Shown here piece after piece: positions 4,716 through 39,201 of a DNA stretch of 64,000 bases. This DNA is from Sinonovacula constricta (lineage: Eukaryota; Mollusca; Bivalvia; Cardiida; Solecurtidae). Each line of letters opens with the position of its first letter. Within the stretch, counting starts at the first letter, position 1. The stretch lies in NCBI GenBank assembly GCA_007844125.1, contig CM017559.1, forward strand, positions 69,270,546 to 69,334,545, in the 5' to 3' direction. Below the pieces are notes generated by a model that was given only the letters and a program-made list of their open reading frames with translations, had not been told where the DNA came from and made no database searches. The position numbers were made by a program, and so were the translations under genes.

Positions 4716-5967
4716 AGCAAGAAATCCATTTAGAAGAAAACAGTATTGATATCTCTGGATTATCAAAGAAAGGCTGAAATAAAATCTTAATGTGATGAAA
4801 TTGGAAATAAATCTATTTAGGTGTTAACAGGCTTCACATTCTCTGGAATCTGTTATGTTTTATTATACATTTTACCTCTCACTTAATGTATTATATATAT
4901 ATATTAATACACAGTAGCTGTAAAGTTGAATTACCAGGGAGAACCAATATCTTCTTCAAACGAATCACACAGCAAACAGTAAACGCCATTTACTTTAGTA
5001 TTCACGGCATGAATTATGCGAAGCCAAACGTCCATTCTGCAAACTGGATAAACGTTGTGTGCAATCTTCAAAACTAGGTTGTTCAAATCACACTGAACTG
5101 TGGATTAGTTGGGACATATTTTACACGAGGAGGAAAACAGTGCTATACCTAGACTCGAGATGAAGATGCACGTGTTTTCAAATGCCAATTGCTGCTATTT
5201 GTGGCCTCCTATAAATGGTGAAAAACATTGGAGTCTGAGTTGTAACGCCAATAACTTATTCCTTTTATTTAATATGAGATGAAAGGATATAATATTATTA
5301 TCCACTGACAGCCTTGAGAGCAGGAGGTTTAATGTTGGGACAAGGTGTTATATACTTCTGTTTTAAAAGTGTATAGTTCTGTTATGTAAGTGCTTTGAAA
5401 TTATTCCAACGAAAGGACAGCCTTGCAAGTGATATATGAGGTATCCAATAAGCAATTGTTATTTGTAAGTGTTATATATAGCTGAAAGTAAACACCAATA
5501 ATGGTGAAATGATAGTAACATATACTGACATCATAACAAACCAGTCAGTAAACATCGGTCGGAGACCAGCGACACAACAATCTGTAACAGTACCCTTTTA
5601 GACTCAAACAGTCCATGATCGAAACGTGTAGCTCGTGTCCAGTACAGTGGACATAAAAGCAGAGGCCATCAAATGATGTTCATGTCCAGCTCATAGTTCA
5701 TGTAATAATATTAAGAAAAAATAATAAAACAACAAATGTAAATTTAGCTGATGTTTCAAATAAAATTATGTAAATTATTGATGGTTTAGGGCTCAAGCTA
5801 CGAGATGAAGAAGACAAACAAAGCAGTAACAATACATGAATGTAGACAAATACATACATGGGGATTATAGAAATGTGCAGAGTACATGAGGTGGTTGAAA
5901 ACTAGCTAGACTTAGATTCTATCAGGAATTTGTAAAGATGCGAACACAAGATGAAATGATAAGAGAC

Positions 5968-6141
5968 CTAGTCAACGTAGGCAACGTAGTAGGGCATCCC
6001 AGGGTCATGGGCTAGCTGGGCATGCGCGTGCATTCCAGGGTCATGGGCCCGCTGGGCATGCACGTGCTGCGGTTTGTAGCTCGCTTGGACATGGTAAAGG
6101 TTCTTCGAAGGCGCACCTTTTGTTTTTTCTGTAGACTTTAT
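5968..6141 (-). CDS. SLC6 exon 15: distal C-terminal tail with internal duplication, stop codon (residues 661-717)
   Basis: A phase-0 acceptor (CTAACATTTCAG) leads into 57 codons and a TAG, matching the phase of exon 14. The tail is His/Ala-rich and has a 12-residue tandem duplication: [12 protein letters not shown] (686-697) followed by [12 protein letters not shown] (698-709), then PYYVAYVD. This exon is assigned from phase, splice site and position only, because distal tails are not conserved in the family. No strong polyadenylation signal follows at once; the nearest minus-strand AATAAA I see is around 5263-5268, so a 3' UTR of about 0.7 kb is possible. An alternative last exon cannot be excluded. 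Confidence 0.65.
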   Translation of the reverse strand: MKSTEKTKGAPSKNLYHVQASYKPQHVHAQRAHDPGMHAHAQLAHDPGMPYYVAYVD

Positions 6142-9100
6142 CTGAAATGTTAGTGGGTCTTGCTGAAGCAAGCCATAATGCCGATGTATAAACTATCTAG
6201 CAAGCTTGAAGGTCCTGTACAGGCTATTAGGCCCATGTACAAACCATTTAAACAAAGAAGCAAGTTATATATAGCAAACAACTAGGCCCATATGATAATC
6301 TGTACGACCCTGTATAAAGCACTAAATCTATAAAACAAGTTATAAGACAATGACAAACTATTTAACCCATGTTGCTTTTTTCAAATTATTGTCTTGTTAA
6401 AAGAATGTGTGCCAAATTTTAGCATCGACGCTTTCAAGTCATACAGCATCAAGGATTTTCTGACACTTATTGATAGAAAATACCGCAAACAAAATTTAGC
6501 AAAAAGTAAAAACGTATATATAAATAAAGTAAATATACTCAATGAGATCAACTCGTTGTTGTTGTTATTGTTAATTTAATGTTAAATAAGCCGTTTAAAT
6601 ATATTCATGTACAACGTAATGAAAATCAAGAAGCAATATTGCATAAGCGCAGAGCTTAGTCCTAATCACATCCCCGAGTTTTGCAATGATGTTGACAATG
6701 ACATGCACGATAGTTAGGAATAGCATTGTATCTGTTACAGTTGATTATTTTTAGTTTAAAAACAAAGTTCTTGTTCAAGGTTATTGTCCAATAACACGAG
6801 GATACAAATGATGGGTCACATGTTACAGTACTTAACATTAGTCTCAATTTGCAGGAGTTTTCAGCTGCTTATACACTTTTCAAAACCCTTAAAAGCTTGC
6901 TACCCAAAGCACTAATATATTTTTGTAAATAACACAATGTATCTACCTAGGAACAGTGTCCTATTAATGCACTTAATTTGTTGGAATCAGGACCTTATTA
7001 TTTTTGCTTATGTTGAATCAATCTTCAAACAAAAACTGTTCATCACTCATTCAAACAAATCATTCACTTTTCTTTCTCTCTGCCACATTCTCAAATATTG
7101 TCGTGTACTTTTCGTAAGGAACCTGCCAAAATAACAGTCAATGGAAAAGTCAACATAGAAAATAGACAAGAACACATATCATTGTAATGACGGCAGCAAA
7201 TATTGACGACAAAAACTAAGAAAGGTAAAAATAAGGCAAGAAAGACATTGAAATATGGACAAAGTTTGATTTTAATTAAGTTGGAAAGGGTGGTTGTGAT
7301 AACCTTACTTTCCACACAGCTTGAATCTTTGTTCCACGCCGTCATAATAAACAATGATTTCGCGTGCATTTTGTTTTAATATACAAGTATATTTATCACA
7401 AATATTCTGGCTTCTACCATCTTTCGTCCCTAGAGAAAACCCCTATTTTCTGTCTGATTGTAGATTAGTATTTGAATGCAACTCTGCAATAACTTCACTA
7501 TTTCAATACGAGATTTGTTCTTGAGGGAGTGTCACACTGTTTTGCAATAAAATGTCGGATCTCAAGCAATATTTGTTATCACCTTTGGCAAATGAACATG
7601 TTGTTTTGCATATAAAGAAGCATGGTAACGGCTAACCTTCTATGATGCTGAAAGTCAATATTTACCTGCAGATTGACGTCATTTGGTGACACATCCATCT
7701 CGCCCTTGCCCCATGGATCCACCACAAAACCAGGCACATACTTGGCTACCAGGGTCCTGTGTTTGACAAGCGCTGGGCCCCATTCAATTGAAGGCTTGCA
7801 GGCATTCTTCAATTTCTGTTAAAACGTTTATTTTTCTTTTACTTGTTTATAGAAGGTCTTTCTTTGACGTTATAATTATATTTTTATGAACTTGTTAAAC
7901 GTATCTGTCTGTAACCAAAGCCAATAAATATATTTGGTAACTGGTGAGCACGCTTTTAATTAGGCGTGAAGACTTCGACAGCCTTGAATGTATCAATCAT
8001 ACCTTATATATATATTAAGGGCTTTTACCCGTCACTAGATGAAAAATGTCCCGCCTGAAAAAATTAGCCATTATTCAAGTGAAAAATGTTATTAAGAGAA
8101 ACATGGGCATATTTTGCTCTTAGAACATTCTGAAATAATGTGTAATAAAGGCCTAAGTGTAAATTTAAATATCTGCAAACAGGTCATTAATATAGTTCCA
8201 CTAGACACATTTGAACGATGGAGCCGGAAGTTTAAGATTAAATGCGGAAATAACCGAAATGTTTATTGTGGAGTATATCGTAACACCACAGACAAATGTC
8301 TCGGCAGAACTTTCTGGACACCTCATGTCACCTAAGCGACCTCCTGACACCTCACATAAGTTTATTGTCCCGATCGGGTCACGATAACTTCGCCGTGAGA
8401 AGTTGAGAGTTACAAGTCGATGAATCCGAACGCCCAGCAACAGGCGACATTACCCGAAATGATCCAACTTACCCCTATGCCAGACCCTTCGGCCATGCAG
8501 ACGGCAACGAAAGCACCGATAATCACGGCAACAATTACGGTCAGCGTCATCAACCAGCCCAGAGCGTCAGCCCAGTCAGGGAAGGCCTCCCCTTCCATGT
8601 CAGTGTACTTGACCCACGAGAAGATCATGATAAACTGCAAGGAGAACAGAAAGGAAGTCAGCCATATGAACAAGAGGTGTCTGCCAATAAACATTTTAAA
8701 AGAAGTACCAGGCAAAATGAAATAAACGCCAATATGAAAACGGCAGCCAACTGTGCTGCCCTATATCTGACTTGATTACAAGTAGCAATATCCACATTTT
8801 GTAAATAGATGTAACGTTATGTCCTCATGTGATTATTACTGTTTTGACGTCACCGAAAGTTAGAATAAATACTTCAACAGTGAAAGGTCTTTTGCTTCCT
8901 TCCTTTGGCACGCAGGGCCCATTTTAAATAAAACAAATTTGTGTGAAGTTTTGTCAGCCCAGGAAAATTATTATAGTTGTTCTTATTTAGAGATTCTGGC
9001 TGTGTTTTGTTATCATTATCAAAGTAATCTTGTCGGTCCGTTAAGATATATTTACGGCTTCCGATCCATTGGATTTTTGTTTTCAGACTGATTTTATTAG

Positions 9101-12100
9101 CTATGAGGAAGGTGTTTAGTCATAAAGCCTGAGCATGGCTCACTCATGTACTCATTGCAAACAGATATTTCCTATCTGAGCAACGCTGCAGAGATAGCTA
9201 TTTTTAAACCATGTGACAACTTACTGTGAAGATTGCATTATATCGTCATCCTACTACGCCCTGAAATCGTTTTCTATTTTTAGTAGGGATTACAATTGTG
9301 CTTATTAATAGACTTCTAATGGACTTGTACTGCCTTACCATATAGACTGTGTTCAAAATAGTCTTTACTTCGACTAACATACATTTACAGTTTATGCGGA
9401 TATTGTGCATAAATCCCAAGAAACTGTCGAAAAGATGTTCGTTTGTTTCTTTATTGGGTTTATCGTCCCACCAACAGTATTTCAGTTTCCTGGAGACGGT
9501 GTCCACTTGAAGCAGATAAAATGCTGCCTTCACTGTGCATAGCATGCCGTGAACACCTGGCATGATACCACACCCAGTCACATTATCCTGACACAGGCCA
9601 ACCAGTCATGGAACTACCCTTATATTTGCTTGAGCGTTAGCAAGGGAAATATACCACTACCATTTTTAACGACTTTGGTATATCGCGGCCCGGGATCGAA
9701 CCCGTCGAAAAGATGTTACATGTGTTTTATTTAGGTAAATTATCGGTCACCTGCTTTAAAGTTTATTATCGGATGATAAATATAAACAATGCTAATAATT
9801 CGAAACGTGCCATTTAACTTGAAGTGTGTGTGTGTTGGGGGGCGGGTGGGGGGTGGGGTGGTGGGGGGATGGGGGGGGGGGCAGAGATTACATGGTGCTG
9901 TCTAAGCTTCCCTTGGGTATGTACACATTTTTCATTTATTTTGTGTATAAGCTTTTTACACTTAATGAAAATACCCTTCTTTATTGTCCATTTACATAAA
10001 ACCGCCAAAATCTATTTTCATTATTTATTATCACTGGCTCTTAGTAGAACATCAACGGTCTCAAGTTAAAATCTTAAATTAAAAAGTATTTGCCAGCCAG
10101 ATCATTTTGATATTTAATACATAGGAGTATATGCATGAAATAGAATGAAAACAACAAAAAAAACATCGAGCAGGAAGGGGAACCCTACCATATCCAGTCC
10201 CCCTGAATAACATGTAATTCGTATACGCTATGCCTTTGGCGTTTGAGGGAAAAAAAACCCAGCAAGAACTGAAACAAAACAGCGCTTGACCACTCCAGTG
10301 CCTGAATGTATGATTAAGCTTTACAGTGCAAGCACACAGTTACAACCTTAATATATTTGCACCAAAATTGTCTTAGTCGGACCAGGGACAGTAAAAAATT
10401 GCACATGTATTACAAACTAAGCATTAGATAGTAGCTGCAAACAAAATTTTAACAGGGGAATTCCGGTGACACTGACGTAGACGAAGACGCTCATGTAATT
10501 TTTAAATCTCCTTTTTTTCAAAGAAGAGTCGGCTTAAAGCTATTGAAAACGCATACCAGAACGCCAGCGGGGGTTAAGATGCACCAGCAAAGAGCCCACC
10601 AGTACTTGCAGATGAAAAATGGACAAAAGCCACAAGCAGTCGCGCCAACCATCGTCTCAATGTCAATCAAGAACCGCTTGATACCTAGTAAACATGGAAG
10701 AAGTATCAAAATTTTGTAACAAGATCGCAGCACATACATGAAATTTGCAAAACATAAAGTAAGGAGTGAAATAGTATTGTTTGACACAAAACAGAAAAAT
10801 ATAATTAAAAGGAGTAAATATTCAACTCTCAAATAATTGCAAACAAAAAGAAGAGCATACATTTATTAAAAACGAAATACATATTGTACAATAGATTTAT
10901 ATACATAAATTGAAAAAATAGCTATACATAAAACAATGAAATGGTGGTTAAGGATTGGATTGGATTAGATTAGCCGGCATTTTTGCCGAAACTGTGTAGC
11001 GACATTTCTATCACTGTAGCACAGGGGCACTTATGAGGTGCCCAGAAACTGAACCCGGCCGGTCCATTATACCGACACCGACGAGTCAGGCGCAATGCTG
11101 TCCCCTTAAGCTTTAGGAAGGAAGCCACTATTACCAACTTTAAAGTCTTTAAAGACATCCCGATCCGAAAGCCGACGCAATACCATCTGAGCTATTACGG
11201 CCAGTTAGTGGTTAATGGTTTTATTTATAAGTAATTGAAAAACTTTAGATTTTAATTTTTTTATCGATGAAGGTATTAAATATGGACAATGAAAATCACA
11301 ACGTTTTTGATACCCATGCTAAAATAGTCATGAGACTAAGACAAAGTTCTTTGCTTGTTTGTGCCGCTCTTGACTGCAGTGTCACTTAGGAGATGCATTT
11401 TTGTGAACGATAGTGTAACAAGCAATAACAGAAAATCGCAGCAATTCTGAGACATTCTTCAGAAAAAAGAACTGCGTACTCCGTTTTTTCACGGCGAGGT
11501 CTTTATTTGTGCAAGAAACATAGTATATTAACAAGGCTTGTAATTGCAGATGAAGCAGACAACAAGAAGTAAGTAGCAGATAGTCTAGTTCTAGTCAGAG
11601 GTACGAATCGTTACTCTACACTATTTATGTAATGAATAAACACGCACGAGAGTGTTAAGCTCCCAGAATAGTCATCGTCTTGTTTCAAGCGCTTGCTATC
11701 AACGGCGCCTTGGATGTCTAAGATCTGTGCTCTTTCATGTTTTTGATGGAACAGCCAAAGAGTTCAGTATGGCTACTGCCCGCGGCTAAGTTCCTATACT
11801 TGAGTACATGGCGCGGACATGAATCGGATGGCCGTGTTGGAAAGGAAGAAATATTGCCCATAGGTCATCACAAACAGTAATTGTAATTTAAGATTGGCTT
11901 ATATGTACAACGTTGTGTCAAGTGTGGTTAAAATGGTATCTGATCATCTGACTCTGTAGAGTTTCCCTATATAACCTCTCCCTATAAAAGTTAGAGGCTC
12001 GGTCAGGGTGCAGAGAAATATATGATATACAGCTTGTAATATGCATATTTTCAATGGTGTACATCACTATAGACTTTACATTCTTAGGAGAAAGATGTTT

Positions 12101-15100
12101 GTCTATTGGTTTTTATCGTCTCACCAACAGTATTTCAGTTATCTGGAGTCCGTGGAGAAAGACGGCTATTGTCAATTATATCAACTATATTTATCATATA
12201 CAGGTATACAAATCAAACAATAACATACCGTAGATGTAACAGATTGAAACACACTCGCAGATGGCAATAAACATGATGTTCCACCCTCCAGAGTACGTGT
12301 CCATGACCTCAAGCATGTAAATTCCGCCCTGAATTGAATTGAAAATGAAAAAAAATGAAAAGCAATGCAATATAGTAGTTTTTATGAATATGATTTACTC
12401 AAATAGTTGAGTAATGATTGTGAATTTTTGTTATCATACATGAGTGCGTGCCTGTTTGCGTGTGTGCGTTGGAGAACATTGATTACCACATATTGTAACT
12501 TCAATCTTACATATTTGTTGCTGTTGTTGTTTGCTTTTGTTTGTTTTGTTGTTGTTGTGTTGTTGTTGTTGTATTTGCTGCATCGCGCTGACACAATTAT
12601 GGTCATATAGAAGACGTCCAGTAAATTATTGGTCGATGAAAACCCCAGACTTATGTCTTGGTAGAACCACCAGCGTACCACATGCAAGCTGGATTATCAT
12701 TTCTGGAGACTGACCTCTTGAATTAAAAATAAAATTGCTAAATAATGAGAAGTTACCACAATGGGCCAGTTGCTTAGCTAGCTGATCAATGCTAGCAATT
12801 ATTTAGTTAAAAACTTTTTGAATGTACTCTGTCAAATTGTTTTGGCACGATTTTCATCCTGAGCTACAACGTAGAGACGATGGCCTATCGACGGCTACAC
12901 CCAGAGAAATCTCTCTAGCAGACAACCACTCACAAAGCGCGATTCATCGATATATAGCAACCATAGCTTGTGGCTGTTTAGGATGATAACTGGTCATGGT
13001 TTGAATTTGTATTTTGTTCATACGATCTTATAAATTTTTCGCTAATGAAGATAGTGATTTTTCTTTTGTAATCATTTTTCGACGCCATGTGAATATCCGC
13101 TTTATATAAAAGCGATTCATTTGAAAAACTCTTATTTTTTCAAAAATATAATTTCCTGACCGAATCAACACCATGTACTTACAGAAAAAAAGAATTAAAG
13201 TCTAGTTATATTCATGCCAAGCGGTTCCAAATTCCTGATGCTGGACCTAAAATACACTGACATGCTGCATTGTGCAGCGATTGGCCTAAACCTACGGTCT
13301 TATCTTTGTGGTGATGTAATTCCGCTCCCCGCATTAAGGACACCGGAAAGGCAGTTTCAATCAAAACCTTTCAAGTAAAACATACTTTGCTTTATTTTCT
13401 TCATGTCTTTTTCATTGCACACAGTATGTGGATACCACATACAAAAACAGAGTCAAGGTATTCTATTTTCATTTTGATGGGTTAATTTAAACTCTAACAC
13501 AGATGAACGTAAATCGGTCGGTCTTGGCGACATAGTGGGAAGATCCAGATAAGCCGGCTCCAGCTGGGAGCTGTGATCAACGCACATCCTCTAACAACAT
13601 ACAGTGTGCTACAGGGCTTACAACATACAGTCTGCTACAGGGCTTACAACATACAGTCTGCTACAGGGCTTACCAAATACAGTCTACTACAGGGCTTACA
13701 ACATATAGTCTGCTACAGGGCTTACCAAATACAGTCTGCTACAGGGCTTACAACATATAGTCTGCTACAGGGCTTACAACATACAGTCTGCTACAGGGCT
13801 TACAACATACAGTCTGCTACAGGGCTTACAACATACAGTCTGCTACAGGGCTTACAACATATAGTCTGCTACAGGGCTTACAACATACAGTCTGCTACAG
13901 GGCTTACAACATACAGTCTGCTACAGGGCTTACAACATACAGTCTGCTACAGGGCTTACAACATATAGTCTGCTACAGGGCTTACAACATACAGTCTGCT
14001 ACAGGGCTTACAACATACAGTCTGCTACAGGGCTTACAACATATAGTCTGCTACAGGGCTTACAACATACAGTCTGCTACAAGGCTTACAACATATAGTC
14101 TGCTACAGGGCTTACAACATACAGTCTGCTACAGGGCTTACAACATACAGTCTGCTACAGGGCTTACAACATACAGTCTGCTACAGGGCTTACAACCATA
14201 CAGTCTGCTACAGGGCTTACAACATACGTCCTGCCTACAGGGCTTACAAACATACAGTCTGCTACACAAGGCTACCAACATATAGTCCTGCTACAGGGCT
14301 TACACATACAGTCCTGCTACAGGGGCTTACAACATACAGTCTGCTACAGGGCTACAAACATACAGTCCTGCTACAGGGCTACAACATATAGTCTGCTACA
14401 GGGCTACAACATACAGTCTGCTACAGGGCTTACACATACAGTCTGCTACAGGGCTTACAACATATAGTCTGCTACAGGGCTTAACAACATATAGTCTGCT
14501 ACAGGGCTTACAAACATACAGTCTGCTACAGGGCTTACAACATACCAGTCTGCTACAGGGCTTACAACATAATAGTCTGCTAGCAAGGGCCTTACAAACA
14601 TACAGTCTGCTACAGGGCTTACAACATACAGTCTGCTACAGGGCTTACAACATACAGTCTGCTACAGGGCTTACAACATACAGTCTGCTACAGGGCTTAC
14701 AACATACAGTCTGCTACAGGGCTTACAACATACAGTCTGCTACAGGGCTTACAACATATAGTCTGCTACAGGGCTTACAACATACAGTCTGCTACAGGGC
14801 TTACCAAATGCAGTCTGCTACAGGGCTTACAACATACAGTCTGCTACAGGGCTTACAACATATAGTCTGCTACAGGGCTTACAACATACAGTCTGCTACA
14901 GGGCTTACAACATACAGTCTGCTACAGGGCTTACCAAATACAGTCTGGTACAGGGCTTACCAAATACAGTCTGCTACAAGGCTTACAACATATAGTCTGC
15001 TATAGGGCTTACAACATACAGTCTGCTACAGGGCTTACAACATACAGTCTGCTACAGGGCTTACAACATACAGTCTGCTACAGGGCTTACAACATATAGT

Positions 15101-18100
15101 CTGCTACAGGGCTTACAACATACAGTCTGCTACTGGGCTTACAACATATAGTCTGCTACAGGGCTTACAACATACAGTCTGCTACAGGGCTTACCAAATA
15201 CAGTCTGCTACAGGGCTTACAACATACAGTCTGCTACAGGGCTTACCAAATACAGTCTGCTACAGGACTAACAACATACAGTCTGCAACAGGGCTTACAA
15301 CATATGGTCTGCTACAGGGCTTACAACATACAGTCTGCTACAGGGCTTACAACATACAGTCTGCTACAGGTCTTACAACATATAGTCTGCTACAGGGCTT
15401 ACAACATATAGTCTGGTACAGGGCTTACAACATACAGTCTGCTACAGGGCTTACAACATATGGTCTGCTACAGGGCTTACAACATACAGTCTGCTACAGG
15501 GCTTACAACATACAGTCTGCTACAGGGCTTACAACATATAGTCTGCTACTGGGCTTACCAAATACAGTCTGCTACAGGGCTTTCCAAAGACAGTCTGCTA
15601 CAGGACTTACAACATACAGTCTGCTACAGGGCTTACAACATACAGTATGCTACAGGACTTACAACATACAGTCTGCTACAGGGCTTACAACATACAGTCT
15701 GCTACAGGGCTTACAACATACAGTCTGCTACAGGGCTTACAACATATAGTCTGCTACTGGGCTTACCAAATACAGTCTGCTACAGGGCTTTCCAAAGACA
15801 GTCTGCTACAGGACTTACAACATACAGTCTGCTACAGGACTTACAACATACAGTCTGCTACAGGACTTACAACATATAGTCTGCTACAGGACTTACAACA
15901 TACAGTCTGCTACAGGACTTACAACATACAGTCTGCTACAGGACTTACAACATACAGTCTGCTACAGGACTTACAACATACAGTCTGCTACAGGACTTAC
16001 AACATACAGTCTGCTACAGGACTTACAACATATAGTCTGCTACAGGACTTACAACATACAGTCTGCTACAGGGCTTACAACATACAGTCTGCTACAGGAC
16101 TTACAACATACAGTCTGCTACAGGGCTTACAACATACAGTCTGCTACAGGGCTTACAACATATAGTCTGCTACTGGGCTTACCAAATACAGTCTGCTACA
16201 GGGCTTTCCAAAGAAAGTCTGCTACAGGACTTACAACATACAGTCTGCTACAGGGCTTACAACATACAGTCTGCTACAGGACTTACAACATACAGTCTGC
16301 TACAGGACTTACAACATACAGCCTGCTACAGGACTTACAACATATAGTCTGCTACAGGACTTACAACATACAGTCTGCTACAGGACTTACAACATATAGT
16401 CTGCTACAGGGCTTACCAAAGACAGTCTGCTACAGGGCTTACAACATATAGTCTGCTGCAGGGCTTGCCAAATACAGTCTGCTACAGGGCTTACAACATA
16501 CAGTCTGCTACAGGACTTACAACATACAGCCTGCTACAGGACTTACAACATACCGTCTGCTACAGGGCTTACAACATAACAGTCTGCTACAGGGCTTGCC
16601 AAAGACAGTCTGCTACAGGGCTTGCCAAATACAGTCTGCTACAGGGCTTACAACATACAGTCTGCTACAGGACTTACAACATACAGCCTGCTACAGGACT
16701 TACAACATACAGTCTGCTACAGGGCTTACAACATAACAGTCTGCTACAGGGCTTACCAAAGACAGTCTGCTACAGGGCTTACAACATATAGTCTGCTACA
16801 GGGCTTGCCAAAGACAGTCTGCTACAGGACTTACAACATACAGTCTGCTACAGGACTTACAACATACAGTCTGCTACAGGGCTTACAACATATAGTCTGC
16901 TACAGGGCTTACAACATATAGTCTGCTACAGGGCTTACAACATACAGTCTGCTACAGGACTTACAACATACAGCCTGCTACAGGACTTACAACATACAGT
17001 CTGCTACAGGGCTTACAACATAACAGTCTGCTACAGGGCTTGCCAAAGACAGTCTGCTACAGGGCTTACAACATATAGTCTGCTAAAGGGCTTGCCAAAT
17101 ACAGTCTGCTACATGGCCTACAACATATAGTCTGCTACAGGGCTTGCCAAATACAGTCTGCTACAGGGCTTACCAAATACAGTCTGCTACAGGGCTTACA
17201 ACATATAGTCTGCTACAGGGCTTGCCAAAGACAGTCTGCTACAGGGCTTACAAAATACAGTCTGCTACAGGGCTTACCAAATACAGTCTGCTACAGGACT
17301 TACAACATACAGTCTGCTACAGGGCTTACAACATATAGTCTGCTACAGGACTTACAACATACAGTCTGCTACAGGGCTTACAACATACCGTCTGCTACAG
17401 GGCTTACAACATATAGTCTGCTACAGGGCTTACAACATACAGTCTGCTACAGGGCTTGCCAAAGACTGTCTGCTACAGGACTTACAACATACAGTCTGCT
17501 AAAGGGCTTACAACATATAGTCTGCTACAGGACTTACAACATATAGTCTGCTACTGGGATTACTTACATTCGTTGTAAGAGTGAGGCCAAGCAGGAAGAA
17601 TATGATGCAGAGGATCATCACAGTGAGCAGCTTGTAGTCCCTCATCTTGACGAATCGATCCATTAAAGCCGTGGTTACAGTCTCAACCAGTACAAACTGT
17701 GGCAACAAAAAACGTAATCCTTGTATACAAGGTGAAACATAAAGTCCTAGCAAACAATTCGGAACATATAGTCCTAGCATACAAAGTGGAACATTAAGTC
17801 CTAGCAAACAATTCGGAACATAAAGTCCTAGCAAACAATTTGGAACATAAAGTCCTAGCAAACAATTAGGAACATAAAGTCCTAGCAAACAATTTGGAAC
17901 ATAAAGGCCTAGCAAACAATTTGGAACATAAAGGCCTAGCAAACATGGTGGAATATAAAATCCTACAAAAATAGTGGAATATAAGGGCCTAGCAAACATT
18001 GTAAACCATAAAGTCCTAAAAACATTGGAGAACAAATCGTCCTTGACCCAGCAAGTATATTGTGGCATGTAAAGTACAAATAACTCTCTGATTTTTGCTC

Positions 18101-21100
18101 ACTTCTATTATAATATCACACTCATTTAGTTAAGCCCTATTTAACTATATAAAATAATTGATACGAAAGAGGAATCATACATATGTTTTGTAGATGACAG
18201 TTAACTAAATGTATAATTAATGAGAACATACACGTTTTCAAGTCTGAGTAGAACTGATGTTAGTAAGGATTATTGCCGTTTGCCATTTTTAAATAGCATC
18301 AAGATTTCACCCGAGTTTTGTGATAAACCTGTAACCTGCGCAGAATACAATCTGATACAACCGACTGAGCAGCGGTTAATTTAACACGTTAAAAGTGTGC
18401 AGAAAATTATTGCTGCATGCAACTGCAGCACTATAATTTGTGCAAGATTGCACTAATTTATCTTTCATGCAAATGTCTATTGTTGGTTGAAAGACATATG
18501 TATACTCGTAGGTCTAAATGTGTATATGTCCCTAAAAATCTTAACATGAATACATATTATATAAGCGTATGTGGTGCGAGTGTGCGTGCATTTGTGCGTG
18601 TGTGTATGACTACATAGTCGCTTCTTCAATCGACTTGTATATATAGCTTTGAACTTAAAGAGCCAATTCCCCGTCATTGCCGGTGGGATGACGGATGGTC
18701 ATGTTGATTATTAATATGTTCAATGGAGATGCGAGGTCATAAAATTGGTATCGTTTGAAGTCAATTCACATCACATATTACTAACCTGACTGTCGACACC
18801 TAGAGTGATCAGCATGAGGAAGAATATAATGGCCCAGAACGGAGCTGCAGGCAGTTTGGTGACTGCGTAGGGATAAACAATGAAGGCCAGGGACGGTCCG
18901 GACTTAGCAACCTCGTCAATGGGCACACCCAGTTCATGCGACAGGTTGCCAAGGTACGAGAAGATGACAAAGCCGGCGAAAACGCTTGTCAAACAGTTGC
19001 CAATAGCAACTGAAATTGCGTCCCTAAAATAATAATACACAGTTAAAGCGACACCAGTATAGTGTTTACTAGTACCACGCCAGAACAGTTGAATACACAA
19101 AATGTTGTTTATTTTGTTGTTGTTGTTGTTCGTTTGGTTGTTGTTGTTGTTTATTCTTTGTTAAAAAGTCTGACAAGCTATACAAGTGACAGTTTACTAG
19201 TAAAAAACGTCAAGATCAACAATTTCAACTTATACAAAACCTGACAAGCTTTACAATTTACTCTTTACGGGTACCACGCCTGACCACCTAAATATTTAGT
19301 AGTTATATCTACGTGTATTTCGTTTTGACAAGTGTAACTTGTTGTGATTTATATTCGAATTGATTCATTCAGTAATATGTCTAAACAGTTTATTGAAGAA
19401 ACAATAATATCAACATGCCCCTATGTGTACTTGTAATTCGTTTATTTTATTTACATATCAAAAACTTTGTCAACGACACCTGTCCTGTTTCAATTTTATG
19501 TTATGGTCTTACCTGAGACAGTCGTTATGGAAGCGGTTGTAGCTGGCCAAGGCGATCAACCCTCCCCAGGAAGCAGAGAGGGAGAAGAAAATCTGCACGG
19601 CGGCATCCTTCCAAATCTGAATTCAACACGTTATATATAATTAAAAATAGAAGCATTTTGATTCGCCAAAAGATCAGCTGATGATTAAAAATAGTATTGT
19701 TCATTTTGGTCAATGCTTCATAAATACAAAGTACATCGATGTACTATGCTGTATTCAACTTTCAAATGTTAAAAAAGATATACACTAGCCACTGATATAG
19801 ACCAGCCACTCACATACACCAGCCACTGACATACACCAGCCACTGGTATACACAAACCACAGAAATACACTAGCCACTAAAATACACTAACCACTGATAT
19901 ACAAAAGCCACTAATAAACACCAACCAATGGTATACACAACTTATAAAAACTTGAAACTGACATACACCTACCACTGGTATACATCAGCCAGAGATATAC
20001 ATCTTCCACTGGTATACACCAGCCTGAGATATACACCTTCCACTGGTATACACTAGCCTGAGATATACACCTTCCACTGGTATACACCAGCCAGGGATAT
20101 ATACCTGCCACTGGTATACATCAGCCTGAGATATACACCTTCCACTGGTATACATCAGCCTGAGATATACACCTTCCACTGGTATACATCAGCCTGAGAT
20201 ATACACCTTCCACTGGTATACACCAGCCTGAGATATACACCTTCCACTGGTATACACTAGCCTGAGATATACACCTTCCACTGGTATACACCAGCCAGAG
20301 ATATATACCTGCCACTGGTATACATCAGACTGAGATATAGCCAGAGATATATACCTGCCACTGGTATACATCAGCCTGAGATATACACCTTCCACTGGTA
20401 TACACCAGCCTGAGATATACACCTTCCACTGGTATACACCAGCCAGAGATATAAACCTGCCACTGGTATACATCAGACTGAGATATAGCCAGAGATATAT
20501 ACCTGCCACTGGTATACATCAGCCTGAGATATACACCTTCCACTGGTATACACCAGCCTGAGATATACACCTTCCACTGGTATACACCAGCCAGAGATAT
20601 ATACCTGCCACTGGTATACATCAGACTGAGATATACACCTTCCACTGGTATACACCAGCCAGAGATATATACCTGCCACTGGTATACACCAGCCTGAGAT
20701 ATACACCTTCCACTAGTATATACCAGGCTGAGATATACACCTTCCACTGGTATATACCAGCCTGAGATTTACACCTTCCACTGGTATACACCAGCCTGAG
20801 ATATATACCTGCCACTGGTATACATCAGCCTGAGATATATACCTTCCACTGGTATACATCAGCCTGAGATATACACCTTCCACTGGTATACATCAGCCAG
20901 AGATATACACCTTCCACTGGTATACACCAGCCTGAGATATATACCTTCCACTGGCATACATCAGCCTGAGTTATACACCTTCCACTGGTATACATCAGCC
21001 TGAGATATACACCTTCCACTAATATACATCAGCCTGAGATATACACCTTCCACTGGTATACATCAGCCTGAGATATACACCTTCCACTGGTATACATCAG

Positions 21101-24100
21101 CCTGAGATATACACCTTCCACTGGTATACATCAGCCAGAGATATATACCTGCCACTGGTATACATCAGCCTGAGATATACACCTTCCACTGGTATACACC
21201 AGCCAGAGATATATACCTACCACTGGTATACATCAGCCTGAGATATACACCAGCCACTGGTATACATCAGCCTGAGATATACACCTTCCACTGGTATACA
21301 CCAGCCAGAGATATATACCTACCACTGGTATACATCAGCCTGAGATATACACCAGCCACTGGTATACATCAGCCTGAGATATACACCAGCCACTGGTATA
21401 CACCAGCCAGAGATATATACCTACCACTGGTATACATCAGCCTGAGATATACACCAGCCACTGGTATACACCAGTCACTGGTATACACCAGCCACGGATA
21501 TACACCTGCCACTGGAATACACCAGTCAGAGATATACACCAGCCACGGATATACACCTGCCACTGGAATACACAAGCCACGGATATACACCAGCCACGGA
21601 TATACACCTGCCACTGGTATACACCAGCCACGGATATACACCTGCCACTGGAATACACCAGTCAGAGATATACATCATCCATCGATATAATCCCAGCAAT
21701 TGATATACACCAGTCACTAATATGGACATAAAGCAGCCAGGGATATACACCTGTCATTTATTTACACCAGCATTGATATACACCAGACACTGGTATAAAA
21801 TGATCTTTGATATATCGCGTCACAGATATACACCCACCACTAATATACACCCGTCACTGATATACACACACAGCTGATATACACCAGCCACTGATATACA
21901 CTTACATGTAAGTGATATACCCCAGTCGCTGACGTAAATCAGCTCTGACATACACCAGCCCTGACATACACCAGCCACTGATATATACTGACCACTTATA
22001 TACAGCGACCACTTATATACATCCGCCACTGTTATGTTCCCGCCACTGATATACACTAGCCATTGATAAACACCGACCACTGATATAAACTGACCACTGA
22101 TATGTACCCGCCATTGATCTACAGAAGCCACTGATATACACCAGTCATTGATAAACACCTATCACTGATATACACTGATCACATATATACATCGACCACT
22201 ATTGGGTTTCCTCAGCCTTTACAATATGACTCGTAGAAAAAGAATCACATCTTATCATTTTTATTGCTCACTAATCAATAATTTGTTACGGGTATGTCTC
22301 GATATATAAACTTTTTTGGCGTGCATAATATCTGGGCTTTTGAGCCGTACATTCCAAAATATACCGTTAGGACGTCGGAGTCTTCCTTCAGCAAAATAGC
22401 TATTATGTGTATTTCCTTCAAAGTAATAATAGACACATACATACTTAACATTATACAGTGCGCCTATAACAAGTAAGAACTGAACAACATGCATGTACGA
22501 TTACAAAGAATATCAATGACAATCAAGATGTACATGTACTTGAGAAAAATGCTAGATACAAGAAACATTGAGACTGAGAAATACTTAGAAGAAATGGAAA
22601 AAACGATAGAGAGAAACAAAGTTGAGTAGGGGAAAGAGCTGATTACTGCGAGAAAGTGCATCAATAATATAAAAAATAATCTAGTCACTTACAGGACGAA
22701 TTGAGGCAGAGTACAGACAGAAATGTAAGAGAAACAATTCATTTTATGAATGCCCTTGCCGAAATGAAACACAAATGAAGTTTATAAAAACAACTGATTA
22801 AAGACTGACAAAAATTATTTCTATTATTACTTTTAGCATAAACATGATTATAATAATCGACATCATCTTTATAACATTTCATAACAAACACATCATCATC
22901 AACCTTTAACAAAGACAAATTTTCACACCGGCTTGTGCTTATTTTGTTATCATCACCGTCCTTATGCATGTCATGCAACATTTTACACTATTTTGCGTCA
23001 TAAGAAACAAATAATCAGCATCAACATCATCACCATCTGCATCATCACCAATCGCATCATCACCATCATCACCAACATCATCACCACCAACATCATCACC
23101 ATCATCACCATCTGCATCATCACCACCAACATCATCACCATCAGCATTAACATCATCACCACCATCATCATCAAAAACAACATCTTCAGCATCATCGCCA
23201 TCAGCATCATCACCATCTGCATTATCAGCATTAACATCATCACCACCATCATCATCAAAAACAACATCTTCAGCATCATCGCCATCAGCATCATCACCAT
23301 CTGCATTATCAGCAGCAACATAATCACCATCTGCATCATCACGATCATCACTGTGGTCATCATTATATAAATTATATTTACCACTTCATAAAGATCTCTT
23401 AAAAATATTCTATAACTGACAACGTACCACTGAGTCACTGAGTTTACTCAAATCAGGAGTGATGTAGAACTGTATTCCATCCTTGTAGCCTTCCAGAAGG
23501 AGACCCCGGATGAACAGGATAACCAAAACGACGTACGGGAAGGTGGCAGTGAAGTAGACGACCTAGAGAAACATACATACACAAATTTTATGTGAGGTGA
23601 CATAACTCACATAGTCACTCAGCCAGGCGGCATGTAGACCAATACCATAGTCATTTTACATCGGATATACATCGAATATCTTGTAATTAGTAACGCACTT
23701 TTAGTAATACTATGGTGCAATGGAAAGGACGTCTACTTTTCGGATATTTTAGAAACAAAAGCTACATGTACCATATGTTAGATATGTTTTATGAAAAGCA
23801 CTTTAAATACAAAACGATCTAACATAAATCAATGACATGCTTAAAGAAGTAAACAGTTTGACCATTAATTTTGTGGGTGCTTTGGCCTGGTAATAAGAGC
23901 ATGAGCACAGATACATTACTTGATACAACTGCCCATATTTCACCCACCTTCCCGGACGACTTGATGGATTTGCTGAGTGCCAGGACTACCATAATGAAAG
24001 CCAGCAGATAACACAGGACGATCCTCCATCGCATAGGGCCTAGGTCTCCAAGGCCATTGCTGAACGCAGACCCGATCACGGAACGCCTGAAAATACAGCA

Positions 24101-27100
24101 TCGCCGTAATGAAAAAGTTATGTAATATTAATTTATTATAAAATTAACTAAAATAATAATATTTGGTAGCCAATGCCATCCTAAACAAAAGATAAAATAA
24201 AGCGAGATATTAGTAGTTAAATGTTAAACTGGCTAAAATGGTTTCCAAAAACAAAGAGGTTAAAGTTTTTGATCGACACTTTGTTATCCTGTTGCTGTCA
24301 CTTATACGACTGAAACTCGCTATAAATAGTGTGTGTTGTTGTTTTAATTTGTATCAAAATCAAACAACTTTCTCAACTTACTCAAAATATTCTTCAGACG
24401 GGAGATTTCTCTTGATGTCGAACTGCTTGGCCAAAGGCTGGTCGTAGATGGCTTTCAATGTTCCATTCACATTATAGCAGGTGCCGTTGTCATACGGAAT
24501 CCATCCCTCAACATGACAAGCTACCCGGCTCGCCACAATAGTCACATAATCCAGACACACTGTAAACAAATAACATGGCCACTTTCACGTGTGTATGATT
24601 CACGCATAACCTGCTTTACAAGACGTATAAGGTTTATGTATTCACAAGGTTCTAAATGTTGTCCGTGTCCTAACTAAGCTTTGCAACTTCAGTTGAATAT
24701 GCATTTAGTTACACAACGGTGGAATTAGCTGTGAAATATTTGTGTTACAGCAAAATATATATCAACATGTAATGTAGTTAATAATGTTGCATGTACTCTG
24801 CTTTTAAGACATTTAATCAAATACACGAAGAGTATTTACTATCAGTTCAGATCTAAACATGACCTTCACCTTGGTCTGTAGGCTGACTTTAGCAAATCGT
24901 CATAGCGGATGAGAACCATTGCGGATAAGAACGGTTCCATCAAACTGAAGCCTTAATGCGATCCTATAGGGTTAATTGTATAATGTAAATTCGTCATTTT
25001 TATTTTGATGGCGACGAAAATTATTTAACACAATTCTGTTAAACGATTAATTTCAAAGCAATGCCCTTTTGAATAGACATTTGACTCTATATAATGAATT
25101 AAAACGAAGTCTAAATGAAGACAAGAAAGTTACCAAGACAATAACTTTCGGCGGCTATACATTGTTTAATCCCATAATTTTGGGTACTCTCCTGTCGTAG
25201 TTGCTATCCGTATTCTGTTATATTACACATTTTTAGTACAGAACACATGAAGTTTATTTATATTTTAAGACTTACGAACTGGCCAAATACGCGGCGTTAA
25301 TAAAAAACGAATTTTAATTGAACTGTAAACTTCATGAAGATATTTCAAATAACGAGTAACTAAAATTATGGCAGTCAGTGATTAATAAAAATAGGAAGGA
25401 AAAGATAAAGTACTCAGAAAACGACGTTTTGTCATCAATGTTATGGCCATACTGGTGACGTCCAGACATAAGTCCGGGAAAGAGATTTGGGATTTGCCGG
25501 CATTTTTGCCGATACTGTGCAGCGACATTTCTATCATAATACAGCACAGGGGCACTTATGAGGTACCCAGGGACTGAACCCGGCCGGTCCATTATATACT
25601 GACACCGACGAGTCAGGCTTAATGCTGTCCCCTTAGTCCCGAGAGTTAGGAGGGAAGCCACTACTACCAACTTTAAAGTCTTTGGTTTGACCCGGCCGGG
25701 GTTTGAACCCACAACCTCCCGATCCGAAAAGCCGACGCTCTACCACTTGAGCTATTGCGGCCGGTAGTTGTGGAAAACCACAAAATATGTAGATCCAGCT
25801 AAGCTATCTCCTACAAGAATAGGTCTCATCAAGAACTACACTGTTTGCTTAAGTGCCTACCATCCCTATCATAACAATATGTAGTGTTATCTTTTCATGC
25901 AGTATGTTGCCTCTAGTGGTTTGTTGCTTAAAGGTGGTATTCGACAGTTTGGACCAAATATTTTTCTCAAATAGCCAACTATATCAGTTATCTGGAAAGA
26001 TCCTGTAAAATGCGGCTCATTGATGCCCTAGATCAGCGTGAGCATTGAAACATAAATCCTCATTCCTCATTACAAACAAGTATTTCCTATCTGAGCCACG
26101 ATGCAGAGATAGCTATTTTTGACTAGGAAAACCACTTGACAACTCACTTTCGAGATTACGCTATACCGTCATCCGGGTAATTCGCTCTGAATTCGATATC
26201 TAGTTTCAGCAGAGATCACTTTCGTGCTTATTTATGGATTTGGAATTATTGAACTTTTGAAGTGTTTTTATTGCCATTTGTTCAGTCTAACAACATGTAC
26301 AGTGGTCAAACCACTTTTCTTCTACTTAAGTATGAGTTGATGCAGAAATTAAGCCCTAATTCCCCAAATTACGGGTGAGGTTGTTACATGAGCTTTGGTA
26401 CAAGCAAACTGTCGGATACCACCTTTAACTAAGAAAGTAGCATGGTTATGATTAGATTGACCACACACTTACTGGGCGTGCTCCATTCGGAGTCGCATTT
26501 GTCCCAGGGCAGTTTTCTGGTAAAGGAAGCGAACAGGTAGTAGAGGGACCAGCCGATGATCATGTTGTAGTAGATGGCGACCATGGCGGACACAGCCACC
26601 ATACCAACGCCTACACCTGTAAGGGTGGAACTTGAGATAAAATTGGACGGTAGAGTTGAGGTTGGTTTCATTCGAAGTCATTTATGATCTTGCTGTACTC
26701 AGCCGCCATCAGTGAAATTCTGTTTAACATCTAAACCCAGCTCGCATGTCTTTCATGAAATAATGCATTACAATTTAAGATTCCGATCTAAAACGCCCAA
26801 CACATCAAATTTTCCTTAAATTAAAAAAGTTTTACCCACTTTACAACTTTTGGAACAAAATTAAAATCTGATAAAAACCTTCTCTACAAAAGTTAGATGA
26901 TAGGGAAGCAACATCCTTTTATATTTCTATAATTTATGTTGTTGTTTTATTTGTGATTTTCTGTTTTAATTCATAACATGTGTAAAATTAAAGGAAATCT
27001 ATTATCATTTTATCAATTTATTATCATTAAACTATAACAGTATAATATAAAAATGACACTTAGAATATCGCTGGTCTGGATTTCATCCTTAATGTTGTTT

Positions 27101-29043
27101 TTGTAAACAAAACTAATTTTGTAAACAAAGACTTTACGCTGTAACTGCAAATAACCCAGCACGGAGATTGGTAACTCTGCATGAGTAGTCTACCTTGAAA
27201 GAGTGGAGCAAACTTCCAGCAGGTGAGGGGCCCACAACTGGAGAACTGTCCCAAACTGAGCTCCATGAAGAATATGGGTAGACCGACGAAGACCAACATG
27301 ATCACATATGGAATGAAGAAGGCGCCTGAAATGAAAGTGTAATGTAACAATTGTTTTAAAGACGTTTGCGAGAGAACTGCGAGACTCTCTCGCGCATAGT
27401 TGTCATTGACTTAAAGTCTAGACCGTGTCTGTATGATCTGTGGTTTATTTCAAACAATTATGGCTACTTTGATACCTAAACACCATCCATTCATCGTCAT
27501 CAGTTATTTAACATGCGGTTTCCATGGTACCGGGTAACACCTTGACTAACATTAGTCCCTAGTCTGTTTCTATCTAGAGCCGGACGTGGTTAACACATAG
27601 TGACTTGTGGCCTTTTATATGGACATAATATAAGGTTTGCTTTGGTTCTCTTGTCCACTTAGTCCATTTACTTTTTACTCCGTTGGGGTTATTATCACCA
27701 CATGAATTGTTTTTCATGAACCTGGCAAACCAGGCAGATAGCACCTATTGTGCCATTACCAAACTGTGTGTCGTCAATGGACACGTGCAAAGCGGATTCT
27801 GCTATCAAAGACACATTTATTATTTGAAAGAAAACCATACACGAAAGTTGTCATCGTAAGTCAGTTAAACATTGTTAATACTCATAATTATTCTATGCGA
27901 CTTCATACCTCCTCCGTTTTTGTAGCACAGGTAGGGAAATCGCCACACGTTACCCAAACCGACGGCGTAACCAAGGCAACTAAGAAAGAAGTCAAAGCGC
28001 CCAGACCAATTCCCTCGCTCCTTGTTCTCATCCTCGAGGTTCTGGAAAGAAAGTTAAAAGGGCACATAACTTAAGATGTCTCAGATGTGCGTCAAAATCT
28101 TAACTCTGGTTCATGCTATAGAGTTATACAGGGTTAAATTCTTATCATAATACGTTAAATAAAACAAAATCATGCATACGAAACATGAGCATTGATTAAA
28201 GATGTGCAGCAAGTGATAAAGAATGCTCTACCAACTGAATAATTTGCTGCAATGTTTCCAAATTCCTCAGGACTCCTCCCGCAACCACCAACCGTCGTCT
28301 ACACCCCTCCCCCCCCCCCCCCACACACACACAGACAACACACGCACACACATACACACACACACGTGCAAGCAAGTCCGCGCGCCCCGATAACATTTTA
28401 TCTCCGGGGACACTATACTTTTTCATAAAGCAGACATGCACGCGCATTATTTCCTGATATATGTACTTACCGTGCAACTGAAGATAAATCCATGGGTTTT
28501 TAAAACTAATTTGTAATCATACACTATTTTTATTACAAGTATAACATAATTTCGATTAAAGTTATTTCATGGTGTCGCAATAACATTTGTAAGAAGTTAA
28601 TTTATTGAGGTTTTTCATTAACACTGGTCTAAAGCGTGTTAATTCTTAAGATGACGTGATTGATACAAGGGAGGTAAATCGTATAAAGCTTAAAGAAATA
28701 AAACATTTCACATTTGTATCCCTTTTTGAACCCTTGAAATAGATTTGGCGGTTGGGTCATATATCGCATCATAATTCACATCGTTTCGTTCAAATGTTTT
28801 GTAATTAATCACTTAGGCCCGCAGCATTCGTGATTAAACTTCTGTGCCAGTAAACGCAACACAGTGCATTATTCTTATCTATCACACACAACAGTTCGTG
28901 AAGTCAAGGCGAAATGTTGTTAGATAAATTATCAGACTTAAAACAGTTTACACCGCACAGTTCACACATTTCCCCTATTATCCACCTACATGAACAATTT
29001 GAATTTTTCTTCTCTTTGAAATAATAATAATAATTATTATACA

Positions 29044-29123
<80 letters not shown>

Positions 29124-33611: not shown

Positions 33612-34810
33612 GGCGGTGCGGGGCAGATGGATTATAAGGGGTTGTAATTGCTGATTCCAATGCTCTGTCACAGGCGCGGCAGACCGGTTATAGTGGGTTG
33701 TAGTCGCTGATTCTACCGCCCGGGTACAGGCGCGGCAGACCGGTTATAGTGGGTTGTAGTCGCTGGTCCTACCGCCCGGGTACAGGCGCGGCAGACCGGT
33801 TATAGTGGGTTGTAGTCGCTGATTCTACCGCCCGAATACAGGCGCGGCAGACCGGTTATAGTGGGTTGTAGTCGCTGATTCTACCGCCCGGGTACAGGCG
33901 CGGCAGACCGGTTATAGTGGGTTGTAGTCGCTGATTCTACCGCCCGGGTACAGGCGCGGCAGACCGGTTATAGTGGGTTGTAGTCGCTGGTCCTACCGCC
34001 CGGGTACAGGCGCGGCAGACCGGTTATAGTGGGTTGTAGTCGCTGATTCTACGCGCCCGGGTACAGGCGCGGCAGACCGGTTATAGTAAATTGTAGTCGC
34101 TGGTCCTACCGCCCGGGTACATGCGCGGCAGACCGGTTATAGTAGGTTGTAGTCGCTGGTCCTACCGCCCGGGTACAGGCGCGGCAGACCGGTTATAGTG
34201 GGTTGTAGTCGCTGGTCCTACCGCCCGGGTACAGGCGCGGCAGACCGGTTATAGTGGGTTGTAGTCGCTGGTCCTACCGCTCGGGTACAGGCGCGGCAGA
34301 CCGGTTATAGTGGGTTGTAGTCGCTGGTCCTACCGCCCGGGTACAGGCGCGGCAGACCGGTTATAGTGGGTTGTAGTCGCTGGTCCTACCGCCCGGGTAC
34401 AGGCGCGGCAGACCGGTTATAGTGGGTTGTAGTCGCTGGTCCTACCGCCCGGGTACAGGCGCGGCAGACCGGTTATAGTGGGTTGTAGTCGCTGGTCCTA
34501 CCGCCCGGGTACAGGCGCGGCAGACCGGTTATAGTGGGTTGTAGTCGCTGATTCTACCGCCCGGGTACAGGCGCGGCAGACCGGTTATAGTGGGTTGTAG
34601 TCGCTGATTCTACCGCCCGGGTACAGGCGCGACAGACCGGTTATAGTGGGTTGTAGTCGCTGATTCTACCGCCCGGGTACAGGCGCGACAGACCGGTTAT
34701 AGTGGGTTGTAGTCACTGATTCTACCGCCCGGGTACAGGCGCGGCAGACCGGTTATAGTAGTATATTGTATATTGTAGTCGCTGATTCCACCGCTCTGGT
34801 ATAGGCGCGC
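33612..34810 (+). repeat. 56-bp GC-rich minisatellite, about 21 units
   Basis: The unit contains CAGGCGCGGCAGACCGGTTA and TAGTGGGTTGTAGTCGCTG, and ends TACCGCCCGGGT. Two versions differ at one place: GATTCTACC (A) and GGTCCTACC (B). Type A dominates at both edges and B fills the centre. The unit carries CCCGGG and ACCGGT palindromes and stands out from the AT-rich surroundings. Confidence 0.95.
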
Positions 34811-36863: not shown

Positions 36864-38005
36864 CAACAGGCTCACAAAATGATATAGCAATTTGCTCAAA
36901 TTTCGCCACCGACGGCATAACATAGGATCTAATTACCAGTTCAGTGTTCTGACAAATGGGCACATAGATATATTTGGGGGCTGTCAGTTGTTTGCGTACC
37001 CCGTTCAAAGAAAAAAAAATACATTACGGTTATGCTTAGCTAGATGACCCTTGAAAATTTATGTTAATCAAAGCGGTTCAACATTGAAAGTGTTCAACAT
37101 CCATTCAGTTCAATATTTAAAGCTTTCCGACACGCCAGACTACCACCGAGTTGCTTACAAATAAGTTTCTATGACAGGACGCCAATCAAAAACTTCCGCC
37201 TTGATGAAATGTAGTTTAACCAATTTTTAACAGCAATTAGGCCTTAAATATGCATTTAAACAAAGGTGCAAGTACTGTGAAAATCAGATATTCACTTAAA
37301 ACTTATCTAACTTATTTAATCTAAGAGAAATCACTAAACTGTGCAAAAGGTAAGCCTGCAATAGGTCATAAAACCCGGATTAAATATATCAAATATCTGA
37401 AAACCTGTAGGTTTATGGAACGGTAGTGCTGGAAACCAACTTTCTATCTAAGGTTTAAACATATCAAATTCGTGGTTATATCGAGATCAGAAAGACGACC
37501 ATTTATAAAAACACTGCCATCTAAGATTTCAGTGCAGAAGCCCACTTAAACCAACAATACGTAACAAAACAGACCGCATACAAGTTGTTTACAGAGTAAG
37601 TTTGGGGAAAAAAAGGAAAATGCCACGCCAATGAAGTGGCGAAAATTGTTGACATAGGGAATGTCTCAACACAAGAACAATGTCAATATTTTGATAGGTC
37701 TTGTCGATTTCTTAAAAACTGAAAGCAAGTATGTATCATATTTAGTTCAACTTCTATATATCTGGACCTCCTCTAGTGATGTTTAATGTACCATCTTTGT
37801 CGAGTTTATAGTCACCCTATGCATGCATCTGCCATCAAGCAAGTACAAGTGGTTATATTACGCATTCAATGATCGGTTTTATTAAATAGTTATGAGTACG
37901 TGTATTCAAATATGAATGTAGTAATCTGCATTCTTACTGTGAGTGTAATTGCTTCACAGTTTTAAATCCCTTACTGAACATTTTGGGTCAGTGTCAAAAC
38001 TAGAA

Positions 38006-38245: not shown

Positions 38246-38352
38246 CAAAACTGGAACTCCCAAGTACAAACAAAACACCATAACCAATTAATCGGAGTAT
38301 GCAACTGCAAGAAACACAAACACGCAGTACATCAATGACATCTACTTCATAT

Positions 38353-39199: not shown

Positions 39200-39201
<2 letters not shown>

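Follow-up and report, generated by a model that had tools for sequence, protein, structure and literature searches.

The window analysed here is a 64,000-nucleotide stretch of the genome of the razor clam Sinonovacula constricta. It contains an SLC6 transporter gene (Table 1) whose top protein match is AAT4 of Sinonovacula rivularis (96%), and its joined exons 9-11 carry the SNF domain (Pfam SNF, 1.3e-52). The intron between exons 10 and 11 begins with GTAAGTAA; the 20-base donor start is GTAAGTAATCCCAGTAGCAG and the 30-bp stretch at the donor is GTAAGTAATCCCAGTAGCAGACTATATGTT. Most of this intron is occupied by a 26-bp minisatellite that lies in sense orientation relative to the gene. TRF gives about 152 copies with a period of 26 bp, in agreement with the original prediction of a minisatellite of some 150 units in this intron.

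Table 1. Features of the transporter gene and its repeat arrays (positions in the window)
Feature	Position	Strand	Details
SLC6 transporter gene	5152..29303	minus	tblastn of Sinonovacula rivularis AAT4 on the window; 15 coding exon pieces
Exon 11	12229..12328	minus	
Intron 10 (exons 10-11)	12329..17567	minus	5,239 bp; first base 17567, last base 12329; about 76% array
26-bp minisatellite	13594..17563	minus	consensus GTAAGCCCTGTAGCAGACTGTATGTT in gene sense; TRF and wraparound alignment
Indel-rich units (16)	14195..14622 (approx.)	minus	probable assembly or consensus error
First of 14 TTG/GTAAGC pseudo-donors	17272..17277	minus	frameshift and stop if used
Second GTAAGT	17532..17537	minus	in-frame gain of 10 codons (30 nt) if used
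Terminal donor-side unit GTAATCCCAGTAGCAGACTATATGTT	17538..17563	minus	differs by a single substitution from the unit type of 15558, 15766 and 16182
True donor GTAAGT	17562..17567	minus	4 bp out of array register
Exon 10	17568..17696	minus	43 codons, FVLVET...LTLTTN; ends in phase 0
27-bp array	17736..18018	minus	10.5 copies; intron 9; ends 39 bp before exon 10

Results

Allowing up to three mismatches, a 25-nt pattern of the unit matched 141 times in the window and not once in 100 shuffles. On the sense strand of 13590-17567, GTAAG occurs 133 times, GTAAGC 99 times and GTAAGT 32 times (the true donor included), TTTGGTAAGC 14 times and CTGTAGCAG 131 times, and none of these five motifs has an antisense copy within the same interval. 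A splice-signal-like start is found in most repeat units: 132 of the 152 full units begin with GTAAGC (101) or GTAAGT (31), and the other 20 begin differently, so the claim that every unit restarts with one of these motifs is true of the large majority rather than of all. Divergence between units is graded by position (Spearman -0.39, p = 2.6e-6, for 136 of the 152 units, with the 16 units of an indel cluster left out); the most diverged units lie on the donor side and the distal units are uniform. There was no peak of higher-order periodicity at lags 1-20, and block copies are local only, around 15558, 15766 and 16182.

TRF and wraparound alignment place the donor-side edge of the array at intron +5. 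The original prediction had the motifs recurring at the same place from the true donor onward, which fails at the donor itself: the next GTAAGT (17537) begins 30 bp, and not 26, past the donor G (17567), leaving the first interval 4 bp off register. This register sets the terminal unit at 17563, so that its own donor position holds the degenerate GTAATC, and the last two bases of the true donor overlap that unit. When four bases (TAAT, +6 to +9) are taken out of intron +1 to +30, what remains is exactly an existing unit type. The junction can be read in one of two ways: either the array excludes the donor and its terminal unit carries one substitution, or the donor lies within the array's first unit, given one 4-bp indel.

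How strong are the donor-like sites within the array? Several units had been proposed to be better donors at position -1 than the true site, and this is borne out slightly by U1 pairing and not by a 5' splice-site matrix. At 14 of 153 sites, which read TTG/GTAAGC, the U1 duplex energy is somewhat better than that of the true donor (-8.0 versus -7.0), and by the matrix these sites tie with it (3.8 versus 3.8). U1 pairing is weaker than at the true donor at the other 139 in-array sites, 135 of which also fall below it by the matrix, the remaining four having no GT or GC and hence no matrix score. Only two sites besides the true donor give a stop-free reading through exon 11, one at +30 (in frame, with 10 added codons) and the other at +56 (frameshifted), which upholds the expectation that donors beyond the first units would bring in stop codons. 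Of the array's pseudo-acceptors, 142 have 9-11 pyrimidines in 20 positions, compared with 10-18 at six real acceptors (exons 2, 7, 8, 10, 11 and 13, with exons 1, 5, 9, 12 and 14 left out), and are weak because of these low counts. Recursive splicing, with AG beside GT, was ruled out, as the consensus unit separates AG from GT by 10 bp.

A Val-Ser reading, as expected of a GTNAGY-like donor, directly follows the exon in seven of seven relatives. Past it, all seven have 5-60 residues of unrelated sequence with no repeat within the visible residues; the readings may include paralogues, and over this reach they are compatible with an array deeper in the intron. Because all seven relatives have the donor-like reading without the repeat, the true donor is probably older than the array, whether or not it seeded it. 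At the protein level, the LTT[N/D]/GG junction is uninterrupted in all 10 proteins examined of 120 listed, the Sinonovacula protein included, and no inserted array codons were found at the exon 10-11 junction in these 10.

Minisatellites are nothing unusual for this genome. In a published S. constricta assembly, tandem repeats form the largest repeat class, at 15.4%, and a 200-kb sample of one contig holds 14 tandem arrays, a few of them low-complexity, at a cut-off of period 10 or more and 4 or more copies. Donor motifs are not enriched in arrays generally (GTRAG in 3 of 20, about the shuffle level), and the other arrays of the gene do not lie significantly close to exons (P = 0.10 and 0.29). 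The 27-bp array of intron 9 has GACT[AT]TATGTT in common with the 26-bp unit, a score reached by 8 of 300 shuffles, uncorrected; we claim no kinship between the two, since among the 380 pairwise comparisons of 20 arrays this pair ranks 7th and unrelated arrays stand above it. The unit pattern had no exact match in viral contigs and was absent from 22 of the 23 loci examined, the remaining one being this locus itself. With up to two mismatches, GTAAGTAATCCCAGTAGCAG has a single genome occurrence, here, and a reversed-pattern control has five.

Discussion

We favor the reading, at a probability of roughly 0.7, that the array is a lineage-specific, near-neutral intronic minisatellite abutting the exon 10 5' splice site of a razor-clam SLC6 amino-acid transporter. 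It would have arisen on this lineage close to the intron start by replication slippage, and slippage or unequal exchange may then have expanded it away from the exon. The true donor would be used mostly, being the most exon-proximal site, with U1 pairing possible from +1 to +7, and the array would be near-neutral, with no more than some leakage to the in-frame second donor at +30. We infer both the neutrality and the use of the true donor. Two points weigh against neutrality: the 14 sites whose U1 pairing is slightly better than the true donor's, and the human ABCA7 array, which shows that an array of this type can alter splicing and expression.

Did the array grow from the intron's own 5' end, as the original prediction held? 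This is possible but unproven. The edge at +5, the sense-strand GTRAG, the divergence gradient and the exact unit type left when TAAT is taken out of +1 to +30 speak for it; the donor's position off strict register and the end of exon 10, which is unlike the unit, speak against it. A randomly placed array would come as close as 4 bp to one exon or the other with P = 0.008, and greater divergence on the donor side is as expected if growth ran distally. However, strict register puts the donor outside the array, so that only four donor bases (GTAA) are left as evidence, and exon 10 resembles the unit no more than chance allows (over its last 26 bases all 1000 of 1000 shuffles reach its score, and over its last 40 bases 895 of 1000 do). 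Whether the GTAAG of the unit has the donor as its source or just looks like it is close to a toss-up, with descent a shade ahead. The main competitor, to which we give somewhat less than even odds, is coincidence: a minisatellite born at any point of the intron reaches the exon edge and holds GTAAG by chance, without the donor as its ancestor. Allowing one substitution, the terminal unit keeps full register with the donor left out, GTRAG falls on one strand in 4% of shuffled 26-bp units, and both the commonness of arrays in this genome and the shuffle-level frequency of GTRAG among them fit such an origin; the improbable abutment and the gradient, which points to the donor-side units as the oldest, do not. 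The converse, in which repeat DNA took over the intron start and supplied the present splice site from one of its units, is very improbable. Although the units carry a usable GTAAG and the terminal one shares the donor's last two bases, the Val-Ser reading stands at the same place without visible repeat in the relatives, and the true donor is off register. An assembly artefact, in which the animal's own array is far shorter or far longer, is just as improbable. Sixteen consecutive units hold 19 of the array's 22 insertions and all six deletions, like a badly polished long-read stretch, and since this cluster is probably consensus error the exact copy number is unsafe; however, the other 136 units have three insertions and no deletions, and the donor-side junction is clean sequence.

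An effect on splicing has a close precedent in human ABCA7, where an intron-18 VNTR with a 25-bp unit beginning at the donor is reported in 12-427 copies, the donor one unit in is used, and longer arrays go with more exon 19 skipping and lower expression (De Roeck et al. 2018, PMC5954066). The clam array could likewise be a functional ladder whose donors compete for U1 and whose length tunes expression through unit retention, downstream skipping or intron retention, chiefly by way of the +30 site, which preserves the frame, and the 14 TTG/GTAAGC sites that surpass the true donor in U1 pairing. We regard this as unlikely. The relatives' proteins have no insert at the junction, retention of one unit in ABCA7 itself is reported not to depend on length (PMC5954066), and the amphioxus repeats known as mirages, according to their authors, leave regular splicing undisturbed (PMC3087553, PMC3902484). 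Less probable again is the full version, in which 5' splice sites seeded from the donor form a competing ladder of variable length that tunes amino-acid transporter output in an intertidal clam. If the ladder were real, the +30 donor would yield an isoform with 10 in-frame codons at LTTN/GGIY, and later donors would yield frameshifted or stop-containing transcripts.

The idea behind the original prediction is also not new in kind, being preceded by ABCA7 intron 18 and the amphioxus mirages. Intronic VNTRs also occur in human SLC6 genes, in intron 8 of SLC6A3 and in intron 2 of SLC6A4, and are not known to lie at a donor; the likeness is that of minisatellites in SLC6 introns, and we claim no homology. 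CeRep25B of C. elegans is described as a mostly intronic, near-palindromic 24-base minisatellite with clusters on chromosomes III and II (PMC4039745), and it also has the heptamer AGCAGAC, which occurs 138 times in the clam array and may be shared by chance. The mirages, reported from Adh3, globins and TnC, with similar repeats in PGBD5 (PMC3087553, PMC3902484), are likewise tandem repeats at an exon-intron boundary that multiply splice-site sequence. As described, they cross the boundary and hold exon sequence (in BflGb6, units of 150-160 bp in 3 and 6 copies), whereas the clam array stops within the intron at +5 and its unit is unlike the exon end.

The closest precedent is ABCA7. Both arrays have a unit of about 25 bp set directly against the upstream exon's donor, a donor-like GT in the unit, a transporter gene as host and tens to hundreds of copies (about 152 in the clam). 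In the published ABCA7 account, the array's first GT is the donor, the region is C-rich, and length polymorphism and splicing effects were measured; the clam donor is 4 bp off strict register, and its array is known from the sequence of one assembly. One unit adds 25 nt in ABCA7, a frameshift, whereas the first step in the clam would add 30 nt, in frame. Taken alone, the clam array is probably a modest addition. If arrays that start at a donor recur in animals as unrelated as human (ABCA7), clam and amphioxus, however, intron 5' ends may be a favored birthplace of minisatellites, and the clam, with its roughly 150 graded copies, would be a test case for how the spliceosome chooses the first among many near-equal donors.

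Results

The window (C5:69270546-69334545 in a genome of 1.22 Gb) contains the 26-bp array, in a minus-strand gene that by sequence is an SLC6 transporter. An SNF domain (Pfam; E 1.3e-52) falls in its joined exons 9-11, and Sinonovacula rivularis AAT4 is the best full-length match among the best 120 of 1402 proteins (96% identity over the query).

Features of the SLC6 gene and tandem arrays in the window
Feature	Position	Strand	Description
SLC6 gene	29303 down to 5152	minus	15 exon pieces of S. rivularis AAT4 aligned
Intron 10	17567 to 12329	minus	5,239 bp; holds 26-bp array
26-bp array	13594-17563	minus	TRF: 26 bp x 152.1 copies, 91% matches
27-bp array	17736-18018	minus	Minus-sense unit CTAGGACTTTATGTTCC[AG]AATTGTTTG; acceptor-like TTTGCTAG in unit
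17/34-bp array, intron 7	19779-22200		162 bp upstream of exon 8
CAT-rich array, intron 7	23014-23347		80 bp past exon 7
56-bp array	33670-34759		19 copies, 97% matches; outside gene
34-bp array	58105-59694		47 copies; outside gene

The array is a real minisatellite, ordinary in kind but striking in position. Wraparound alignment gave 152 full units and two edge stubs, with the gene-sense consensus GTAAGCCCTGTAGCAGACTGTATGTT. Most of its insertions (19 of 22) and all six deletions are confined to 16 units at 14195-14622; outside that stretch there are three insertions and no deletions. This cluster is likely a poor consensus from an unpolished long-read stretch, and the copy number is therefore approximate. 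Neither AATAAA nor ATTAAA occurs inside the array. The heptamer AGCAGAC occurs 138 times within 13594-17563; in C. elegans genes subject to multiple splicing decisions it is reported to be enriched in the introns on either side of alternate exons, and it also belongs to the CeRep25B minisatellite (PMC4039745).

How unusual is this arrangement? If the array were placed at random in its intron, the probability of its ending no more than 4 bp from one of the two flanking exons would be P = 0.008, and 4% of shuffled 26-bp units carry GTRAG on a given strand; both figures are post hoc, the feature having been picked by the original prediction. The gene's other arrays also lie close to exon edges, but not significantly so. 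Exon 10 is flanked on both sides, by the 27-bp array upstream and the 26-bp array downstream; the former ends 39 bp short of the exon by TRF, and its last unit lies 27 nt from the acceptor AG by eye. Sampling 200 kb of the contig (spaced loci L004-L023) yielded 14 arrays with a period of at least 10 and four or more copies, a few being low-complexity sequence, and tandem repeats form the largest repeat class (15.4%) in the published S. constricta assembly (PMC7358530). GTRAG showed no excess, occurring in 3 of 20 arrays compared (7 from the window, 13 from other loci). Two of the arrays sampled from this contig, at L011:8524-8923 and L007:4690-6018 (73-bp and 102-bp units), contain the donor-like GTRAG in their units. 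Elsewhere in the window, ~37978-43581 holds (AC)n tracts and blocks that recur with identical or near-identical short readings (for example GGARGVVVE... and RLWYVAVRDRTRGLPYL); these probably represent a single mobile element present in several copies.

Donors were scored by U1 duplex energy and a 5' splice-site matrix. The true donor (-7.0 kcal/mol; matrix 3.8) is middling, since the gene's ten scored donors (of 14 introns) span -4.2 to -11.0 by U1. Several units had been proposed as better donors at position -1; TTG/GTAAGC, at 14 of 153 in-array sites, is stronger by U1 (-8.0) but ties by matrix (3.8), and the common site types reach -4.3 or -5.4 by U1 and 0.8 or 1.7 by matrix. Use of the donor at 17537 would add 10 residues in frame, and use of the third donor (17511) would shift the frame and leave exon 11 without a stop. 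Every other in-array donor meets a stop before exon 11 ends, as predicted for donors beyond the first few units.

Discussion

Did the array arise from the intron's own donor? Each unit was said to start over with a donor-like motif in a constant position. Most do open with GTAAGC (101 of 152) or GTAAGT (31), the others with GCAAGC (9) or other hexamers (11), but the array edge is at 17563, intron position +5, by both TRF and wraparound alignment. The true donor, GTAAGT at 17567-17562, begins four bases before this edge, and the next GTAAGT follows after 30 bp. Two parses of this edge are possible. The terminal donor-side unit, GTAATCCCAGTAGCAGACTATATGTT, is one base (column 5) off the unit type at 16182, 15766 and 15558, which would require one substitution and leave four donor bases unexplained. 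Alternatively, a single 4-bp indel would put the donor inside unit 1, as intron +1 to +30 minus four bases (TAAT, +6 to +9) is exactly that unit type. We do not rank the two because each lacks a parallel in the array: the terminal unit alone among 152 has T in column 5, and no further 4-bp indel was seen outside 14195-14622. The unit shows no resemblance to the end of exon 10: with the last 26 bases of the exon, 1000 of 1000 shuffles scored at least as high, and with the last 40 bases, 895 of 1000 did.

Seven database readings, all the candidates running through the end of exon 10, were assumed to be genomic because they continue past the exon. All seven have LTT[N/D] then Val-Ser, the expected translation of a GTNAGY donor, followed by unrelated residues (5, 13, 13, 23, 23, 25 and 60 of them) in which no repeat was visible by eye; the readings may mix in paralogues, Ser may be TCN, and an array deeper in the intron would escape view. 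Because Val-Ser stands without the repeat in these relatives, we cautiously suggest that the donor predates the array, which would be new on this lineage. No insert was found at the spliced exon 10-11 junction in the four proteins (of nine fetched) that span it, or in any of the ten fetched from a second set of 120 listed. Across 136 of the 152 units (the 16 indel-cluster units left out), units nearer the donor carry more mismatches to the consensus than distal ones (Spearman -0.39, p 2.6e-6), with means per unit of 1.66 in the donor half versus 0.88 in the other (0 of 5000 permutations). Such a gradient would be expected if the donor-side end were old and the array had grown distally. Derivation from the true donor is plausible, with the odds near even. 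As a whole, the sequence facts of the original prediction stand, with corrections.

Two known systems resemble this array. In amphioxus mirages, exon-intron boundaries are repeated, reportedly leaving regular splicing undisturbed (PMC3087553, PMC3902484). The clam array is not a strict mirage because its repeat contains no exon sequence. The human ABCA7 VNTR (PMC5954066) consists of 25-bp units, the first GT serving as the exon 18 donor, in alleles of 12-427 units. There, a donor one unit in is reportedly used independently of array length, exon 19 skipping increases with length, and expression is lower. The clam array shares this layout except for its 4-bp offset, and by this analogy it may have a role in splicing.
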